Shown here: in pieces, positions 1 through 4,533 of the stretch | Layout: every line of letters begins with the position of its first letter | How positions within the stretch are numbered: position 1 is the first letter of the stretch | From: a virus | IMG/VR virus record: IMGVR_UViG_3300005664_000074 | Span: 1 to 25,673 of that record | Length of the DNA stretch: 25,673 bases | Reading direction: 5' to 3' (one strand) | The notes under the pieces: generated by a model | The model's database searches: none | Told to the model about the DNA's origin: nothing | What the model saw: the letters and a program-made list of their open reading frames with translations, nothing else | Translations under genes and position numbers: made by a program

Positions 1-115
1 GAAGCCATTTATAAATTGGTTTCATAAAATAATAGCCAGAAAATGACATATCAGCACTGAACATTTCTTTGCATTCTTCTTCGTGCAAAAGTGGAAATCC
101 TTTAATGTTTACCAT
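1..115 (-). CDS. Partial CDS, N-terminal 38 residues, unknown function
   Basis: An open frame begins with ATG at position 115 and runs without a stop off the left edge, giving 38 residues that start MVNIKGFPLL. I do not recognise the protein from this fragment. It has an A-rich leader (ending AAAAACA before the ATG) like other genes here. It follows the attC-like element at 155-258, and the sequence just after that element's terminal GTTA box leads into this gene, so it may be the first part of another integron-like cassette that continues outside the window. The aromatic-rich stretch near residues 24-37 is ordinary protein-like sequence. I am fairly sure it is a real gene and have no view on its role. 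Confidence 0.6.
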   Translation of the reverse strand, partial: MVNIKGFPLLHEEECKEMFSADMSFSGYYFMKPIYKWL

Positions 116-154
116 TGTTTTTAAATTAAATTGTTAAGCCAAACCAAGAAAAAA

Positions 155-258
155 CGGCTTATAACAGTGGTTTGGCAAAATACCGCCACAAGCCTTTGTA
201 CTATAATTCAACATTTGTGCAAGGCGGTACTTCGCCAGGCCACCAACCGTTATAAACC
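155..258 (-). repeat. attC-like palindrome A
   Basis: On the plus strand this reads as a left box ending TTATAAC (155-165), a single A, an arm GTGGTTTGGC (167-176), a second arm TACCGCC (181-187), a loop, GGCGGTA (223-229), GCCAGGCCAC (234-243), five unpaired bases (244-248) and a right box GTTATAAACC (249-258). The outer boxes TTATAAC/GTTATAA pair perfectly. The 1-nt versus 5-nt spacing is the same as in elements B, C and E. The stop codon of the upstream gene (250-252) lies inside the right box. The matching cassette-start repeat for the right box was not found in the window, so this is an isolated site. Confidence 0.65.
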
Positions 259-477
259 TTCCCACTCCTCCACCAACTCCATTACTCTCACAAATTCACT
301 TGCTTTCATTTCTAAGTGTTCACCTACTATGTAAGCAAAAGAACTATCTAATACTGGCTTTCCGTTGCGTTTGTCGTGCTTGTAATAGTTATTGCAAATG
401 AAATGTAATTTGTCTCTTTTTTCTTCCTTTACTTCTAACCTTGTTACAAAAAAAGTTCCTAAGCTGCATTTATGCAT
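250..477 (-). CDS. Small hypothetical protein, 75 aa
   Basis: This 75-residue basic protein has no motif I recognise. It starts at ATG 477 behind a strong example of the leader found before several genes here (AATAACCAAAAACTAA at plus 483-498, then AAATT and ATG). Its TAA stop lies within the GTTATAA box of the attC-like element A. Two cysteines and a cluster of aromatic residues (around residues 25-36) are visible, but there is no membrane segment. The leader is of phage type, so the gene may belong to the phage backbone with a cassette inserted directly behind it. The leader is also a perfect 16-nt complement to the linker of the candidate small RNA at 784-882. Confidence 0.65.
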   Translation of the reverse strand: MHKCSLGTFFVTRLEVKEEKRDKLHFICNNYYKHDKRNGKPVLDSSFAYIVGEHLEMKASEFVRVMELVEEWEGL

Positions 478-506
478 AATTTTTAGTTTTTGGTTATTGT
501 TAGTTA

Positions 507-689
507 TTAATCGTTGTATTCAAAATCTTTAATACCATTAGGCAAAGTACTAAAAATTTCTATATTAAATTTTTTAGCATAGTTTTTAGCTTTTCTTTCA
601 GTATCAAATCCCTTAACGCTAAATATTTCTTTAGAATTAAAAAAGTTTAAAAAACTCATATTTTGTATTGTTGTTATAGTTGCTTTCAT
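507..689 (-). CDS. Small hypothetical protein, 60 aa
   Basis: This is a 60-residue protein of unknown function. Residues 1-25 are hydrophobic and aromatic, and the middle is basic with spacing suggestive of one helix (TERKAKNYAKKF). It starts at ATG 689 after a leader with the local A-rich motif, here slightly altered by an inserted base (ACCAATAAACTAAAA). A TATCTTTG box at 722-729 could be the -7 element for it. It ends 30 bases before the next gene's start, suggesting the two are co-transcribed. Nothing visible points to a specific job. Confidence 0.6.
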   Translation of the reverse strand: MKATITTIQNMSFLNFFNSKEIFSVKGFDTERKAKNYAKKFNIEIFSTLPNGIKDFEYND

Positions 690-721
690 TGTGTTTTAGT
701 TTATTGGTTATAATGATAGAA

Positions 722-729
722 CAAAGATA
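722..729 (-). promoter_or_regulatory. Candidate -7 box TATCTTTG
   Basis: On the minus strand this is TATCTTTG, an exact match to the Bacteroidota -7 consensus TAnnTTTG, 32 bases upstream of the ATG at 689. A TTTG lies upstream but about 30 bases away, too far for a normal -33 element, so support is from one box only. Confidence 0.35.
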
Positions 730-781
730 AACAAAGTTTTTAATTAATTTTACTTTTTGCAAAGTTTTTTTTAATTGGCAT

Positions 782-806
782 AAAAAAAGGGGCTTTACAC
801 CCCTTT
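782..806 (-). terminator. Intrinsic terminator ending the candidate small RNA
   Basis: On the minus strand, AAAGGGG and CCCCTTT form a 7-bp stem around a 7-nt loop, followed directly by a T run (plus-strand A run 782-788). It closes the transcript expected from the promoter at 889-918. Confidence 0.75.
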
Positions 807-882
807 CCTTTCATTCGGCTAACTACTTCCGAATAATAACCAAAAACTAACAGATGCCAGCATTGCACTGACAATATGAAAA
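784..882 (-). ncRNA. Candidate small RNA with antisense linker
   Basis: This interval has no plausible minus-strand gene, yet a two-box promoter sits just upstream (889-918) and an intrinsic terminator just downstream, predicting a transcript of about 100 nt. It would fold into a hairpin at 855-873 (TGTCAG/CTGGCA), a linker, a hairpin at 813-834 (ATTCGG/CCGAAT) and the terminator stem. The linker's 16 bases (complement of plus 835-850) are a perfect antisense match to the leader of the gene at 250-477, and match other phage leaders with one or two differences that form G-U pairs. Target pairing is an inference. The motif could instead be the leader of a decayed plus-strand gene. Confidence 0.5.
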
Positions 883-888
883 TCTTAA

Positions 889-918
889 CAAAGATAGTTT
901 TATTTTTGTTATTTCAAA
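889..918 (-). promoter_or_regulatory. Bacteroidota-type promoter, both boxes present
   Basis: The minus strand shows TTTG (915-918), an 18-base spacer and TATCTTTG (889-896), matching the known Bacteroidota -33 TTTG / -7 TAnnTTTG pattern with normal spacing. Transcription would start near 882. The only thing before the terminator at 782-806 is the structured non-coding segment. Confidence 0.6.
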
Positions 919-948
919 TAAAAAAGCCTTAAAATTAATTAAGGCTTT
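919..948 (-). terminator. Intrinsic terminator after the tRNA-like element
   Basis: AAAGCCTTAA (923-932) pairs with TTAAGGCTTT (939-948) around a 6-nt loop. On the minus strand the stem is followed by a T run (plus-strand A run 920-925). The flanking 20 bases at 909-928 are identical to those of the terminator at 4212-4240. Confidence 0.75.
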
Positions 949-953
949 AAAAA

Positions 954-1026
954 TACTTGTGTTGGACTCGAACCAACGCCAAAAGGAATAAACCTCACAC
1001 GCTCCAACCTACAAAGCTAACAAGTA
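954..1026 (-). tRNA. tRNA-like element with poor anticodon stem
   Basis: The 73-nt minus-strand sequence has the exact length of a tRNA. The acceptor stem TACTTGT/ACAAGTA is a perfect 7 bp. The D stem GCTT/GAGC encloses a 9-nt loop with the GG pair at the usual place. The T arm GTTGG-TTCGAGT-CCAAC is perfect and typical. No CCA is encoded. The anticodon arm is weak: read in register the stem is TGTGA/TCCTT with two clear mismatches, and the loop GGTTTAT has TTT at the anticodon position but G instead of T before it. It may be a decayed tRNA-Lys-like gene or an unusual phage tRNA. It abuts the stop codon of the 161-aa gene and is followed by a terminator. Confidence 0.5.
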
Positions 1027-1512
1027 TTAATTTTTAATAAATCCTAACTTAGAAAAAATCTTTAACTTTTCACCTAAAAACATTCCGCTGCCGAACAAAC
1101 CAACTAAGCCACCGCCACCCGTTAATGCTTGCGATAAAGTCATATTCCATAAAAAAGTCTTAATAGTTGAAAAGAACTGAAAAACAAAATTTGTTTTAAT
1201 TTCTTTTCGATTATCACTCTTATTCTCTTTAGCTTCAAATTTTGCCACTTTTACCGCCTTTTTTGCCTCATTTTTGATTGTTTCGGCTTCTTGGCGTGTA
1301 TCTGCTTCATTTAGCTTTATTTCTGCTTTAGCTTCGATTTTTGCAAGTTTTATATCTTGTTTCGTTTTCGGCTGCTCGATTATAATAGAACCATCTTTTT
1401 TAGCTTCGATTAAAGTAGTTAATCGTATTACTTCTTTTTCACATTCGCTTAGTTTCTTTTTTGGAGTTGCAAATAAGGATAGTGGGATTAGTATTAGGAT
1501 AAGTTTTTTCAT
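1027..1512 (-). CDS. Exported coiled-coil protein with C-terminal hydrophobic segment, 161 aa
   Basis: Residues 1-15 look like a signal peptide (MKKLILILIPLSLFA). They are followed by a long charged helix of about 80 residues, very rich in Lys, Glu and Ala (roughly 25-105), and a hydrophobic glycine-rich end (about 107-150, with GGGGLVGLFGSG) that may span a membrane. This topology, exported N terminus, coiled coil, C-terminal membrane segment, resembles unimolecular spanins, which fuse inner and outer membranes at lysis. No convincing lipobox is present, so the spanin idea is only a suggestion. The start overlaps the stop of the 56-aa gene (ATGA), implying translational coupling. Its TAA directly abuts the tRNA-like element. 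Confidence 0.7.
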   Translation of the reverse strand: MKKLILILIPLSLFATPKKKLSECEKEVIRLTTLIEAKKDGSIIIEQPKTKQDIKLAKIEAKAEIKLNEADTRQEAETIKNEAKKAVKVAKFEAKENKSDNRKEIKTNFVFQFFSTIKTFLWNMTLSQALTGGGGLVGLFGSGMFLGEKLKIFSKLGFIKN

Positions 1513-1679
1513 TTAATAGGCTCTTTAATTTCTAAATTTATTTTATAAGCACCTATTGAATTATCCCAATAACGAACCCCTATAAATTTATAATTTGTAT
1601 CAAAAATATTTCCAATTTCGTCAATATGTCCAATTAACGGCATATTTTTTATTCCTTCGCAAATTCTATCTTTACTCAT
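1509..1679 (-). CDS. Small hypothetical protein, 56 aa
   Basis: A 56-codon frame begins at ATG 1679 (MSKDRICEGI) and ends with TGA overlapping the ATG of the 161-aa gene (ATGA, 1509-1512), a strong sign of a real coupled gene. The leader contains the local motif (AATAACTAAAAACTAA, complement of plus 1686-1701), one base different from the leader of the gene at 250-477. The protein is mixed alpha/beta in composition with no recognisable motif. A second in-frame ATG at residue 13 could also serve. I do not know its function. The tight coupling suggests it acts with the exported coiled-coil protein. Confidence 0.7.
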   Translation of the reverse strand: MSKDRICEGIKNMPLIGHIDEIGNIFDTNYKFIGVRYWDNSIGAYKINLEIKEPIK

Positions 1680-1701
1680 AACATTTTAGTTTTTAGTTAT
1701 T

Positions 1702-1959
1702 TTATAATGCAATATTTAACAATTCTTTCATTTTAATTAATAATTCTTTATTTTTATTTTCAAAATATTTGTTTAAAAAATCTATTAAATCTTGCTTTTC
1801 TTTTATGTTTAATTTTATTGCATAGTTTTCTCCACGAGCATTATATAAAGATAAATCAACAAAAGGTAAACTACCATGAGTTTTTAATGTTTTTAATTTT
1901 ACTTCATTTAAACTAATTTCATTAGATATTAATAAAATATTTTTTTGTAAGTCTTCCAT
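1702..1959 (-). CDS. Small hypothetical protein, 85 aa
   Basis: I choose ATG at 1959 (MEDLQKNILL) rather than an upstream TTG because the ATG directly follows the local leader motif (AAACTAAAAACT) and lies 15 bases below a promoter box. The protein is helical and lysine-rich at both ends, with a central segment (about residues 28-46, LPFVDLSLYNARGENYAIK) that looks like beta strands. No family is recognised. It ends 22 bases before the start of the 56-aa gene, so the two, plus the 161-aa gene, probably form one transcript ending at the tRNA-like element and terminator. Confidence 0.65.
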   Translation of the reverse strand: MEDLQKNILLISNEISLNEVKLKTLKTHGSLPFVDLSLYNARGENYAIKLNIKEKQDLIDFLNKYFENKNKELLIKMKELLNIAL

Positions 1960-1974
1960 AGTTTTTAGTTTACT

Positions 1975-2005
1975 CAAAGATACTAAAAAGGAACGTCATT
2001 ATCAA
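1975..2005 (-). promoter_or_regulatory. Bacteroidota-type promoter before the 85-aa gene
   Basis: The minus strand shows TTG (2003-2005), a 20-base spacer and TATCTTTG (1975-1982), 15 bases upstream of ATG 1959. The boxes fit the TTTG / TAnnTTTG pattern, with only three of four bases in the -33 box. Confidence 0.45.
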
Positions 2006-2012
2006 TAATAAC

Positions 2013-2228
2013 TTATACTTTTTTGTTAATAGTAGTCGTCATTGCTACACATTGCGCAATAGTTTTCTTGTCATTCGCTATTCTATACCCCTCATTATTG
2101 CCTACTTTTATAATACTCAACTTTTTTAAAGTAGTGCAATAGTTGTTATTAGTTGGTAATTTATACAACTCTTTTTTATACCAACCAAAGAAAAACTTTT
2201 TATAATAAAAACCTTTTTTAAAAATCAT
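2013..2228 (-). CDS. Small basic hypothetical protein, 71 aa
   Basis: This 71-residue protein is strongly basic and aromatic at its N terminus (MIFKKGFYYKKFFFGWYKK). No family is recognised. It begins 30 bases past the right end of the cassette array, just after the half palindrome at 2241-2267. It may therefore be the first ordinary phage gene after the array, or a remnant of a further cassette whose second boundary has been lost. The unusual run of Phe, Tyr and Lys could in part reflect AT-rich sequence drift, so the coding status is only moderately secure. Confidence 0.45.
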   Translation of the reverse strand: MIFKKGFYYKKFFFGWYKKELYKLPTNNNYCTTLKKLSIIKVGNNEGYRIANDKKTIAQCVAMTTTINKKV

Positions 2229-2240
2229 TTTACCGAATTT

Positions 2241-2267
2241 ATAAGACTTAGCGACAAGTTAGCGGAG
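2241..2267 (-). repeat. attC half-site F (truncated end of cassette array)
   Basis: The right box GTTAGCGGAG (2258-2267) is preceded by five bases and an arm-like stretch (2241-2252), as in the full elements. I found no partner arm or left box further left. The box matches the start of the cassette ending at 2580 (14 of 15 bases over 2258-2272 versus 2566-2580), so it marks the end of that cassette. Confidence 0.55.
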
Positions 2268-2270
2268 ATT

Positions 2271-2582
2271 TTAGACGAACTGCCCATTTCTCCTGCGTTC
2301 CTCTCTTAATTCACTAAAATGCTCTTTCAATTCATTTTCTGACTTAAAAATGAATGTGCCTATATTGACAGGAAAGAATGAATAATTATTACCATCAAAG
2401 TCACTGTGGTATTGCTGAATTTTAGTTTTGTCTTTAGTCACATTTAATACCAATCCTGTGACAACCCCTTTCATAATCTTGTCTTCTTTTGGGTAAAGAA
2501 TGTAGTCTATACCAGCATTACCCCATGACAAAGCAAATATTTCATCACCGATTGACAAATCAGTAAAAACCTCCGCTAACAT
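2271..2582 (-). CDS. Cassette 4 protein, unknown function, 103 aa
   Basis: The gene fills the cassette at 2258-2580. The most economical start is ATG at 2582, which straddles the recombination point (AT from the preceding attC-like element, G^TTA from the cassette), giving 103 residues that start MLAEVFTDLS. An in-frame ATG at 2633 within the loop of element B, preceded by an A-rich leader, would add 17 residues encoded by the attC arm. A TTG at 2723 is rejected. The protein is mixed alpha/beta with a charged helical C terminus (residues about 82-98) and no recognised motif. Its TAA stop lies 4 bases before the half-site box. Cassette genes are often orphans, so lack of recognition is expected. 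Confidence 0.65.
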   Translation of the reverse strand: MLAEVFTDLSIGDEIFALSWGNAGIDYILYPKEDKIMKGVVTGLVLNVTKDKTKIQQYHSDFDGNNYSFFPVNIGTFIFKSENELKEHFSELREERRRNGQFV

Positions 2583-2712
2583 CCGTTTTGCGTCAGGCGG
2601 GGCTTCGTGGTTAATTGTAGTTTCGTTTTCCATATCAATTTTTGTTGTTAAGTGAATGTTTTGTGCTTCGATTTCCCGCCCGAACGCAAAGCGGAGTGCC
2701 GTTATACGCAAG
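2571..2712 (-). repeat. attC-like palindrome B
   Basis: Left box CTCCGCTAAC (2571-2580), single A, a 21-nt arm (2582-2602), a loop of about 72 nt, a second 21-nt arm (2675-2695) that pairs with the first at nearly every position, five unpaired bases (2696-2700), and right box GTTATACGCAAG (2701-2712). The 1/5 spacing matches elements A, C and E. The loop contains a leader-like sequence and an ATG (2631-2633) in frame with the next gene. Confidence 0.75.
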
Positions 2713-2713
2713 T

Positions 2714-3013
2714 TTAAAACCAAAAACGGTCAACCAACTTAACGTATTTAATTTCAGGTTTATCAATATTTCCCCAATATGATTTAATTTTCCATTTAGT
2801 TTTTGGTTTGGGAAGTGGGAATTTTAACGTGTCCCAATTCTTACTATCGTTTGTGTCTGCAATGAAATGATTAAAATTTGTTACACCGCAATTCATAAAA
2901 TTACGTGGTATTTGAACGTCAATATAACGCTCACGTTTATTAAAATTCACACTAAAAAACCTGCGTATAACAGCAAGTATATTTAATTGCGGGGTTCGTG
3001 CTTCTTGTTCCAT
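2714..3013 (-). CDS. Cassette 3 protein, unknown function, up to 99 aa
   Basis: The open frame has an ATG at 3013 inside the loop of element C, preceded by an A-rich leader (ATAAAAAGCACAA), and reads through the palindrome arm into the cassette. If translation starts there, the first 14 or so residues are encoded by the preceding attC-like site. An in-frame GTG at 2950 lies wholly within the cassette (2701-2971) and would give 78 residues. The protein is rich in Asn, Lys and Trp, ending KLVDRFWF, with no recognised family. The stop is 2 bases from the right box of element B, typical cassette packing. The gene is likely real, and its start is unsettled. Confidence 0.55.
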   Translation of the reverse strand: MEQEARTPQLNILAVIRRFFSVNFNKRERYIDVQIPRNFMNCGVTNFNHFIADTNDSKNWDTLKFPLPKPKTKWKIKSYWGNIDKPEIKYVKLVDRFWF

Positions 3014-3100
3014 TTGTGCTTTTTATTTAAGTTATTACTAATTTGAAAATTTTGTGCTTTTAAGTCCGCAACTAAATATACTTGCGAAACGTTACCAGCA
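2961..3100 (-). repeat. attC-like palindrome C
   Basis: Left box ending GCGTATAAC (2961-2971), single A, 20-nt arm (2973-2992), a 73-nt loop, 20-nt arm (3066-3085) pairing with only one G-T mismatch, five bases GAAAC (3086-3090) and right box GTTACCAGCA (3091-3100). It is the cleanest long stem of the set. The loop carries the start of the frame at 3013. Confidence 0.8.
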
Positions 3101-3151
3101 ATAGCCGTGCTTCGTAGCATAGTTCCTGCTAATATTGAGGAAAAATAAAGC

Positions 3152-3643
3152 TTAAATTTTTTTCCTGCGCTCATTTTTGAATTTCTTATAAGTTGTCCAT
3201 TCGTTTGATAAAGAAACATTCAGTTTTGTAAATGGCAGATACGCTCCACCTTTCATTCCTTTCCCATACCTGAAATAGATATGTATTCCAAAAATTATTA
3301 GCCACTTACCGCCCGTATGTTTCCAATCACCTTTCCTAAATGGCACAAACCTTTGATAGTTCAATCGGCACTCTTCCGAATAATCGTGAGCCATTCTAAT
3401 CAGCATAAACATTTTGTTAATGGCTTCCTCTTTGGTTTTCCCTTGAGCGCATCCGTGCAATCTATCGCCTAATAATTTTTTAGTTTCGTCATTACAGGTA
3501 ACCACCCACCATTCACCATCATTCACAACGGAAATAGGAAAACTGAATGTTTCTTTATTCTTTTCGTGACTCCACCAACTTATGCGTTCAACTTCCTCTT
3601 TGTTTTGGGGGTCGTCCCACCAGTTGTAATTTTCTTTTGCCAT
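3152..3643 (-). CDS. Cassette 2 protein, weakly HicB-like, 163 aa
   Basis: The largest cassette gene starts at ATG 3643 (MAKENYNWWD) behind an A-rich leader that shares the AAGCACAAAA module with the loops of elements B and C. Residues about 32-80 (FSFPISVVNDGEWWVV, then HGCAQGKTKEEAINKM) have the strand-Gly-x-Thr-x-Glu-Glu-Ala-helix pattern of HicB-type and similar small dsRNA-fold domains. No partner toxin is visible next to it, so I do not call it an antitoxin. The C-terminal half is very rich in Trp, Tyr, Gly and Lys, with one short hydrophobic stretch (KWLIIFGIHIYF, residues about 113-124). It occupies most of the 619-bp cassette at 3091-3709. The gene is secure and the function unknown. 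Confidence 0.65.
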   Translation of the reverse strand: MAKENYNWWDDPQNKEEVERISWWSHEKNKETFSFPISVVNDGEWWVVTCNDETKKLLGDRLHGCAQGKTKEEAINKMFMLIRMAHDYSEECRLNYQRFVPFRKGDWKHTGGKWLIIFGIHIYFRYGKGMKGGAYLPFTKLNVSLSNEWTTYKKFKNERRKKI

Positions 3644-3699
3644 CGCTAAAAATTTAAGTTTTATTTTTTGTGCTTCTAATTAAGTTCATCGTATGCTAC

Positions 3700-3763
3700 T
3701 GCTGGTAACACCGTATTGTATGCCATGCGAAAAGCACGGCAACAATACTTTTTCGTTAGTGGC
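3700..3763 (-). repeat. attC-like palindrome D (short, 64 bp)
   Basis: Left box TGCTGGTAAC (3700-3709), single A, arm 3711-3728, 5-nt loop, arm 3734-3748 pairing with one bulged base (GTATTGTATGCC versus GTATTGTTGCC), six bases (3749-3754) and right box GTTAGTGGC (3755-3763). Its size is close to the shortest class of known attC sites. The base of the stem is less well paired than in the other elements. Confidence 0.7.
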
Positions 3764-3773
3764 AAGTGCTACG

Positions 3774-4028
3774 TTACTCAATAACACCAGCCTTTTTTAA
3801 ATTACTGACTATTTGTTGTTCTACTTTGTAAGGTGCTTCTGTTCCAACCTCATACCTAACACCAAGTGATTTTATAAACGTTTCTACTTTATCCCAATTC
3901 TGTTCTGAAACTTGCATAGAAACACCACCAGTAGTTATGTTGGCATAATCATTCTTATTATTGGTGTTTATAAAATCAATCACCTTACAAGCATTTTCGT
4001 AATTTAATAATCTCAAATATTTTTGCAT
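3774..4028 (-). CDS. Cassette 1 protein, unknown function, 84 aa
   Basis: This 84-residue protein starts at ATG 4028 (MQKYLRLLNY) after a short A-rich leader (AAATTAAACGAA) and ends with TAA 10 bases before the right box of element D. It fills the 304-bp cassette at 3755-4058. The sequence suggests a compact alpha/beta protein: helix (about 9-22), strand (residues 28-41, YANITTGGVSMQVS), helix (42-55) and a C-terminal helix. I do not recognise the family. It is the first gene of the array in the direction of transcription, the position best expressed in integrons. Confidence 0.65.
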   Translation of the reverse strand: MQKYLRLLNYENACKVIDFINTNNKNDYANITTGGVSMQVSEQNWDKVETFIKSLGVRYEVGTEAPYKVEQQIVSNLKKAGVIE

Positions 4029-4049
4029 TTCGTTTAATTTACCGCACCA

Positions 4050-4156
4050 GCCACTAACAGCGGTTTGGTGCTATTATTTTGCCTATAAATTTTATCTAAG
4101 GCTTGAAGTATCCGCAAGGCAAAATAACAGACACCAAGCCGCAAATCGTTACCTAC
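4050..4156 (-). repeat. attC-like palindrome E (first site of the array)
   Basis: Left box GCCACTAAC (4050-4058), single A, arm GCGGTTTGGTG continuing to 4083, loop, arm 4118-4142 ending ACACCAAGCCGC, five bases AAATC (4143-4147) and right box GTTACCTAC (4148-4156). The stem is about 24 bp with a few mismatches. No gene-bearing cassette is seen upstream of it; a terminator at 4212-4240 lies there instead. Confidence 0.75.
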
Positions 4157-4157
4157 A

Positions 4158-4165
4158 CAAAGGTA
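4158..4165 (-). promoter_or_regulatory. Candidate -7 box TACCTTTG ahead of the cassette array
   Basis: The minus strand has TACCTTTG, matching TAnnTTTG, directly before element E, so a transcript would run through all four cassettes. No TTTG is present at the expected -33 distance, so support is weak. Confidence 0.3.
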
Positions 4166-4211
4166 AACTAAATTTTATATTTTCGGTAATTTTAGGTAAT
4201 TTATTTCAAAT

Positions 4212-4240
4212 AAAAAAGCCCTACATTGCTGCAAGGCTTT
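4212..4240 (-). terminator. Intrinsic terminator upstream of the cassette array
   Basis: AAAGCC (4215-4220) pairs with GGCTTT (4235-4240) around a 14-nt loop, followed on the minus strand by a T run (plus A run 4212-4217). It lies downstream of the 78-aa gene and separates phage transcription from the array. It shares an exact 20-base flank (4201-4220) with the terminator at 919-948. Confidence 0.65.
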
Positions 4241-4296
4241 AAAAAAAGTAAACAAACATGAAATAGAAATACAAATATAGTAAAGTTTTTGGATTG

Positions 4297-4533
4297 TTAT
4301 AATTTTTCTAATTCAATTTTTACTTGTTCCCAATAAGAATTGTCAATATTCCATTCTTTTTTATAGATGCTTAATATTTCATTAACTGCAATTAAAGCGC
4401 ATCTTATTGCCGAATTTTTAAACATATTATTAGTTATTATGCACGGATTACTATCTTGACTGCATCCACTCATTGTGATATATGTTGATTCAAACATAGT
4501 GCATAAATCAATTGCCTTTTCTTTCGGTGTCAT
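4297..4533 (-). CDS. Small Bacteroidota phage protein, 78 aa
   Basis: The protein begins MTPKEKAIDLCTMFE and has a central IRCALIAVNEIL and a C-terminal YWEQVKIELEKL. This pattern, an N-terminal helix, a helix with Ala-Leu-Ile-Ala-Val-(Asp/Asn)-Glu-Ile, then Tyr-Trp-x-x-Val-Lys, is one I associate with a very common family of small uncharacterised proteins in Bacteroidota phages and prophages. Its role is not known. It starts at ATG 4533 behind a clear copy of the local leader motif (CAAAAACTAAAATT) and is followed by the terminator at 4212-4240. A TATATTTG box at 4556-4563 could be its -7 element. Confidence 0.75.
   Translation of the reverse strand: MTPKEKAIDLCTMFESTYITMSGCSQDSNPCIITNNMFKNSAIRCALIAVNEILSIYKKEWNIDNSYWEQVKIELEKL

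Follow-up and report, generated by a model that had tools for sequence, protein, structure and literature searches.

Among described systems, integrons and CALINs share with the type of phage array reported here single-gene cassettes with a hairpin site, a cut at G/TTA (the slash marks the exchange point), reshuffling, insertion at one attI-like end with the distal cassettes more conserved, and an ORFan-rich cargo that includes methyltransferases. Cassettes in phages are already known, since 17 phage CALINs were published in 2023; IntI1 was active on five of the six phage sites tested, among them a site from Polaribacter phage P12002L (Qi et al. 2023, PMC9892861). The Moomin phages of Flavobacterium (Nilsson et al. 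2020, PMC7077304) carry the same type of array as our stretch of DNA, and the paper mentions neither integrons nor cassettes. The XerA/simple YR recombinases (NF040815; Smyshlyaev et al. 2021, PMC8138268), which have only a core-binding and a catalytic domain, measure ~280 aa and lack the IntI insertion, resemble the enzymes found beside arrays of this type. We found no literature on sites with 1/5 spacers (one base on the left, five on the right) combined with insertion-less recombinases, on flipped phage cassettes or on cassette turnover in Moomin phages; preprints and most subscription papers lay outside the search, and priority is not established.

The window, the whole stretch of 25,673 nucleotides analysed here (IMG/VR record IMGVR_UViG_3300005664_000074), is a linear virus fragment of 25.7 kb. 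Its minus strand carries genes that, from general knowledge, we take to be terminase-like, portal-like and tape-measure-like. We read positions 2258-4147 as four mobile gene cassettes in a tailed phage infecting Bacteroidota, an array made by integron-like site-specific recombination, and put the probability of this reading at roughly 80%. An earlier note on this DNA had seen no integrase, and the 25.7-kb record indeed encodes no integrase or recombinase, an absence that is no proof in a linear fragment. The note had also placed the array inside the phage, and this placement has gained support: isolated, completely sequenced phages carry the same kind of array, which makes an assembly chimera unlikely. 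An Rfam search of the window returned only tRNA and no attC-like family at the gathering score; the single tRNA (953-1026, minus strand, 35.5 bits) lies among phage genes to the left of the array.

On the plus strand, 2258-4147 divides into four head-to-tail units without gaps: cassette 1 (2258-2700), cassette 2 (2701-3090), cassette 3 (3091-3754) and cassette 4 (3755-4147). Each unit starts with GTTA, carries one minus-strand gene and a TAAC box, and finishes in a terminal hairpin, immediately followed by the next GTTA. The TAAC box matches the start of its own unit at 13-14 of 15 bases in a repeat private to that segment (2258/2580, 2701/2971 and 3091/3709, 14 of 15; 3755/4058, 13 of 15), so that all four 15-bp GTTA repeats lie where the earlier note had reported them. 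Five GTT...AAC pairs with at least 13 of 15 matches occur in positions 1-4400, against 0.37 expected (100 dinucleotide shuffles, maximum 2); the fifth pair is a phage leader repeat and not a cassette. An inverted repeat at both ends of each segment would also suit four unrelated transposons or MITEs with terminal inverted repeats, a reading to which we give next to no chance. The repeats differ among segments and match within one, which bears out the earlier argument that they are not the terminal repeats of one transposon; no transposase was seen, the units share one type of hairpin and abut without gaps, and relatives show a shared attI-like insertion site and direct cassette-cassette junctions. 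The criterion for a TIR transposon or MITE, the same terminal repeat in every copy with a transposase or target duplication, is not met. Mobile cassettes agree with the way the sites fold. The palindromes pair internally with non-matching outer boxes, as had been proposed and as our folds confirm; the two boxes of a hairpin mismatch each other in the array and match once the cassette is closed as a circle. When a cassette is folded as an excised circle, its private arms pair with each other, so that the hairpin stem grows into one long stem.

Five sites of this kind lie in the window, all with hairpins and AAC/GTT cores, although their outer box bases fit the RYYYAAC/GTTRRRY consensus only partly. 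On the plus strand, hairpins A, B, C and E have a single A as left spacer and five bases as right spacer; this spacing had been described correctly for B, C and E and holds likewise for A, but the one and six bases given for D did not survive, the best fit there being three and six. A covariance model (R1) was built from 23 outside sites, with the window excluded and training hairpins of 80-90 nt. It recovered the attC-like plus-strand hairpins E (4059-4147; 84.2 bits, E 3e-14) and A (166-248; 69.1 bits, E 2.4e-11); hairpins C (2972-3090; 19.6 bits, E 0.067) and B (2581-2700; 19.0 bits, E 0.088), also attC-like and on the plus strand, are weak and rank third and fourth in the window among the 24 matches listed. 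Hairpin D (3710-3754, plus strand), a short variant with 3/6 spacers, did not reach significance (12.8 bits, E 1.3). Hairpin A is the same kind of site and closes one more cassette, which extends past the left end of the contig; an open frame at 1-115 (minus strand, 38 codons, truncated by the contig end) would, by inference, be the gene of that cassette.

Hairpin E is of one family with the commonest phage site. One 19-base arm of hairpin E occurs in 47 viral contigs and only five bacterial genome contigs, all of them MAGs. Four short contigs with array sites of this family, three titled as Bacteroidetes MAGs (L092-L094) and one as an archaeon MAG (L095, JAACWA010000018.1), are probably phage or Bacteroidota contigs binned into MAGs. 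In the loci sharing the arm, as in the Moomin phages, up to about a dozen hairpins are arrayed on one strand, hairpins that the search itself had not selected. Spacers of 5/1, which are 1/5 on the plus strand, were found in 108 of 163 site calls. Among the 105 non-redundant sites with exact 5/1 spacing, the single spacer base is A in 100; their five-base spacer is of the RAAAC kind, stem position 5 is a T.G pair, and outer position 11 has an A.C mismatch. Covariation in the inner stem is strong, with two-sided changes in 8 of 11 pairs, and the whole-structure covariation score is 0.388 against 0.095 after shuffling. In two Moomin genomes, one drawn on for training and the other not, the model also finds more than 20 sites.

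The genes of the four cassettes lie on the minus strand. The gene of cassette 1 (2271-2633) encodes 120 aa if it starts at the ATG inside hairpin B, which contains its leader and start codon, and that of cassette 2 (2714-3013, 99 aa) likewise starts inside its own hairpin, C, and crosses the GTTA box in frame; neither has a family match. For the genes of cassette 3 (3152-3643, 163 aa) and cassette 4 (3774-4028, 84 aa), no relative was found. Searches of Pfam, PHROGs and PADLOC returned no family for the cassette genes of the window; two of them had no relatives in phage and viral protein collections, and the 163-aa gene had none in bacterial collections either. The four genes have no known relatives and no assigned function. 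Cassette 3 also contains a perfect 20-nt inverted repeat (3208-3227/3539-3558) and a 21-nt one (95%; 3141-3161/3648-3668) with a different centre, both within or flanking the gene and both unexplained.

On its right, the array ends at a GTTACCT box (4148-4154, plus strand) that abuts phage genes, a boundary drawn from the sequence; on its left, an attI-like end at 2198-2258 (plus strand) is inferred by analogy with a fixed attI-like site in Moomin phages. No second copy of the window's own four cassettes was found elsewhere, and their mobility is therefore inferred from relatives. For the window's terminase and its DUF5675 gene, the loci of relatives (90 loci, 0.88 Mb) contained no covariance-model match at E<=0.05, so that no direct comparison with an empty site is available for this phage.

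The natural variation that we used comes from 18 Flavobacterium Moomin phage genomes (Lillamyvirus, Muminvirus and Hattifnattvirus), whose arrays hold about 10-14 cassettes. A left flank of 60 bp, ending in CATGTAATATTGTAG directly before TTA, is identical in all 18 and is followed by ten different first cassettes; rightward, the arrays grow more alike and finish in the same distal cassettes. The fixed flank acts like an attI, with the most variable cassettes adjoining it. Cassette G is mid-array in lillamy9-1, missing from sniff9-2 and first in lillamy9-7, and there are single-cassette insertions and deletions, and isolates one cassette apart, with the neighbours undisturbed. The earlier note had proposed checking whether, in related phages, single segments are present, absent or reordered with precise cuts at the G of GTTA, and this is what the Moomin phages display. 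In junction comparisons, where a neighbour is shared on one side and a different cassette lies beyond (identity falling from >=0.95 to <0.7, both sides scored), the switch falls exactly at G/TTA in 95 of 99 cases. Cassettes I and J figure in three of the four exceptions, which may be homologous or illegitimate recombination events or clustering artefacts; the fourth is a pair of related cassettes. The junction pattern is the trace expected of integron-type recombination, an inference from natural variation made without an assay. For cassette 1 of the window, the exchange point is predicted between G2258 and T2259, the G/TTA cut itself having been shown in the related phages.

Mosaicism offers another account of this variation, in which co-infecting phages recombine by homologous or illegitimate events and the hairpins are only terminators or leaders. 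The Moomin phages are indeed mosaic, and their hairpins hold leaders and could be terminators. We nevertheless regard this account as highly improbable, because switching is exact at G/TTA in those 95 of 99 comparisons while the bases matching on the switching side have a median of only 3-4, a homology beyond the cut too short for general homologous recombination to explain. The cassette-specific private inverted repeats and the relocation of a cassette to the attI-like end also count against it.

Integron-like exchange in these phages involves a unit made of the gene and the hairpin on its 5' side, as junction identities in the Moomin genomes indicate. Units cut at the gene-strand GTTA were considered and rejected, since junction identities keep the hairpin with the gene downstream of it. 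Because the hairpin moves with the gene 3' of it, the genes are antisense to the direction of the array. Phage cassettes are antisense in 113 of 120 cases (7 sense), and in 35 the hairpin contains the start codon; these cassettes fail the test of genes in array orientation with the hairpin 3' of the gene; bacterial arrays with the same type of site gave 4 antisense and 21 sense cassettes. Orientation was scored by the longest ORF, and the bacterial sample is small (25 cassettes). That the hairpin provides the leader of the cassette gene is an inference.

At E <= 1e-5, the covariance model matched in 17 of 396 Bacteroidota genomes, and many of the Bacteroidota arrays adjoin a tyrosine recombinase of ~280 aa or somewhat longer. 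In four loci (L197, L203, L208 and L225) the stop codon of this enzyme lies 88-99 nt ahead of the first GTTA; a similar enzyme in two phage lineages (L111 and L143) has its start codon 52-53 nt from the first GTTA. A recombinase about 17 kb from its array (L171, ORF of 482 aa) was left out of the count. As separate observations, near-identical phage arrays with a recombinase come from two different datasets (IMG/VR contigs L111 and L120), and on one Bacteroidota chromosome a long array of this type runs for >20 kb in the vicinity of a short recombinase (L206 and L221). Pattern searches with the two phage recombinases returned only their own contigs and one near-duplicate. No such enzyme was found in a complete Lillamyvirus genome, and most array-bearing phage contigs also lack one; at the curated cut-off, no IntI was detected in any array-bearing viral record. 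The array-adjacent recombinases match the integron integrase model below the cut-off and with a gap, and in the alignment they lack an insertion found in five of five true IntI from the same genomes. They have the IntI-like C-terminal motif SP(L/F)D. In a small tree, IntI and XerC/D are each monophyletic; the short enzymes fall outside both, on the IntI side.

Two further explanations hinge on the identity of the enzyme. The array could be a canonical CALIN, made of ordinary attC cassettes that an IntI carrying the additional domain took from a host integron. GTT/AAC cores, attC-like hairpins and the CALINs already known in phages speak for this, as does IntI1 recombining a site of Polaribacter phage P12002L, which carries similar cassettes (PMC9892861); a true IntI is moreover encoded in 5 of the 17 array-bearing Bacteroidota genomes. 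The arrays adjoining IntI in those same genomes, however, have 4/5 spacers and give no matches to the covariance model, whereas arrays of the window type adjoin recombinases without the IntI insertion, and we consider a canonical CALIN unlikely. Hairpin single-strand substrates of Xer are known. Host or phage XerC/XerD might thus recombine these hairpins without any dedicated recombinase, as in CTX phage integration, and the near-universal presence of Xer in hosts, a matter of general knowledge, would explain phage arrays that have no recombinase. This remains very unlikely, since the array-adjacent enzymes lie outside the XerC/D clade (100/100), have that IntI-like motif and sit at the attI-like end, a placement for which a model with Xer alone has no explanation.

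The cargo bears on what such exchange may be used for. Among 102 phage cassette proteins, 21 match N6/N4 methylase, and C5, D12 and Mom account for three each; DNA methyltransferases thus make up about a quarter, and most of the other proteins are orphans. Because DNA methyltransferases and Mom proteins are so prominent in this pool, it probably serves to exchange anti-restriction genes quickly, along with other accessory ones. In the Moomin study, every phage isolated on LMO6 plated with the same success on both hosts, passage on LMO6 brought lillamy9-1 and morran9-1 to equal efficiency, and the authors tied poor plating on LMO6 to the lack of one methyltransferase (Nilsson et al. 2020, PMC7077304). 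In our comparison, the methyltransferase cassette O (893 bp) is present in every LMO6-isolated genome examined except snusmum6-1, which has another methyltransferase cassette, X, and it is missing from lillamy9-1 and morran9-1. This distribution is compatible with an effect of cassette exchange on plating; that the published gene is cassette O is unconfirmed.

Each cassette consists of one gene and one hairpin site. In the mechanism that we propose, the folded single strand of the site would, in the window, be cut at G/TTA by a tyrosine recombinase, a step inferred without an assay. The acting enzyme would belong to the short family seen beside Bacteroidota arrays and in two phage lineages; for the window this, too, is inferred. 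It may be supplied in trans, by the host or by a co-infecting element, a source inferred because neither this contig nor the Lillamyvirus genome encodes the enzyme. Relative to bacterial cassettes, phage cassettes are flipped, with the hairpin upstream of the gene and able to hold its leader and start codon, a layout that would let each cassette be expressed wherever it landed. A broader claim, which we hold as probable but with appreciable doubt, is that this is a separate integron-like platform of Bacteroidota, in which a short IntI-related recombinase without the insertion works on asymmetric 1/5 sites, and that tailed phages have turned it into a cassette pool of their own, with the genes flipped, the hairpin serving as leader and start, and anti-restriction genes swapped site-specifically. 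If so, integron-like cassette shuffling would be possible without an insertion in IntI that has been considered indispensable for integrons to work, and isolated lytic phages would have a precise, built-in route for exchanging defence-evasion genes. The mechanism, the enzyme behind it and any influence on plating are open to direct testing, since a culture collection has isolates one cassette apart.

Set beside the known systems, the array type fulfils two criteria for an integron-like system in Moomin phages, namely single-cassette gain, loss and reordering at G/TTA and an attI-like receiving site. It fails two strict criteria for an integron, an IntI that has the additional domain near patch III and spacers of about 4-6 nt on both sides. 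The XerA/simple YR recombinases share the domain layout of the array enzymes, but the latter lie beside cassette arrays and an attI-like site, and in the small tree their grouping is with IntI, not with XerC/D. Polaribacter is a flavobacterium. One close parallel is phage P12002L (L144), which has a published CALIN and carries, at 38087-38932, what reads as an antisense methyltransferase cassette with matching GTTACCTA boxes (GTTAC type) and a short 3/6 hairpin like site D; its authors described attC sites with divergent directions, in few sites and without a link to a wider phage or host family. Compared with integrons and CALINs, the sites have 1/5 spacers where about 4/5 to 5/6 is usual, the private complementary stretch is ~15 bp long rather than ~7 bp and has a conserved A.C mismatch at position 11, the recombinase lacks the IntI insertion, and phage genes run antisense to the array. 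The integron reading of the earlier note therefore stands as integron-like but not as canonical, given spacers of 1/5 rather than 4/5 and the lack of the IntI-specific insertion. The best reading is an integron-like system distinct from canonical integrons in its spacers and its recombinase.
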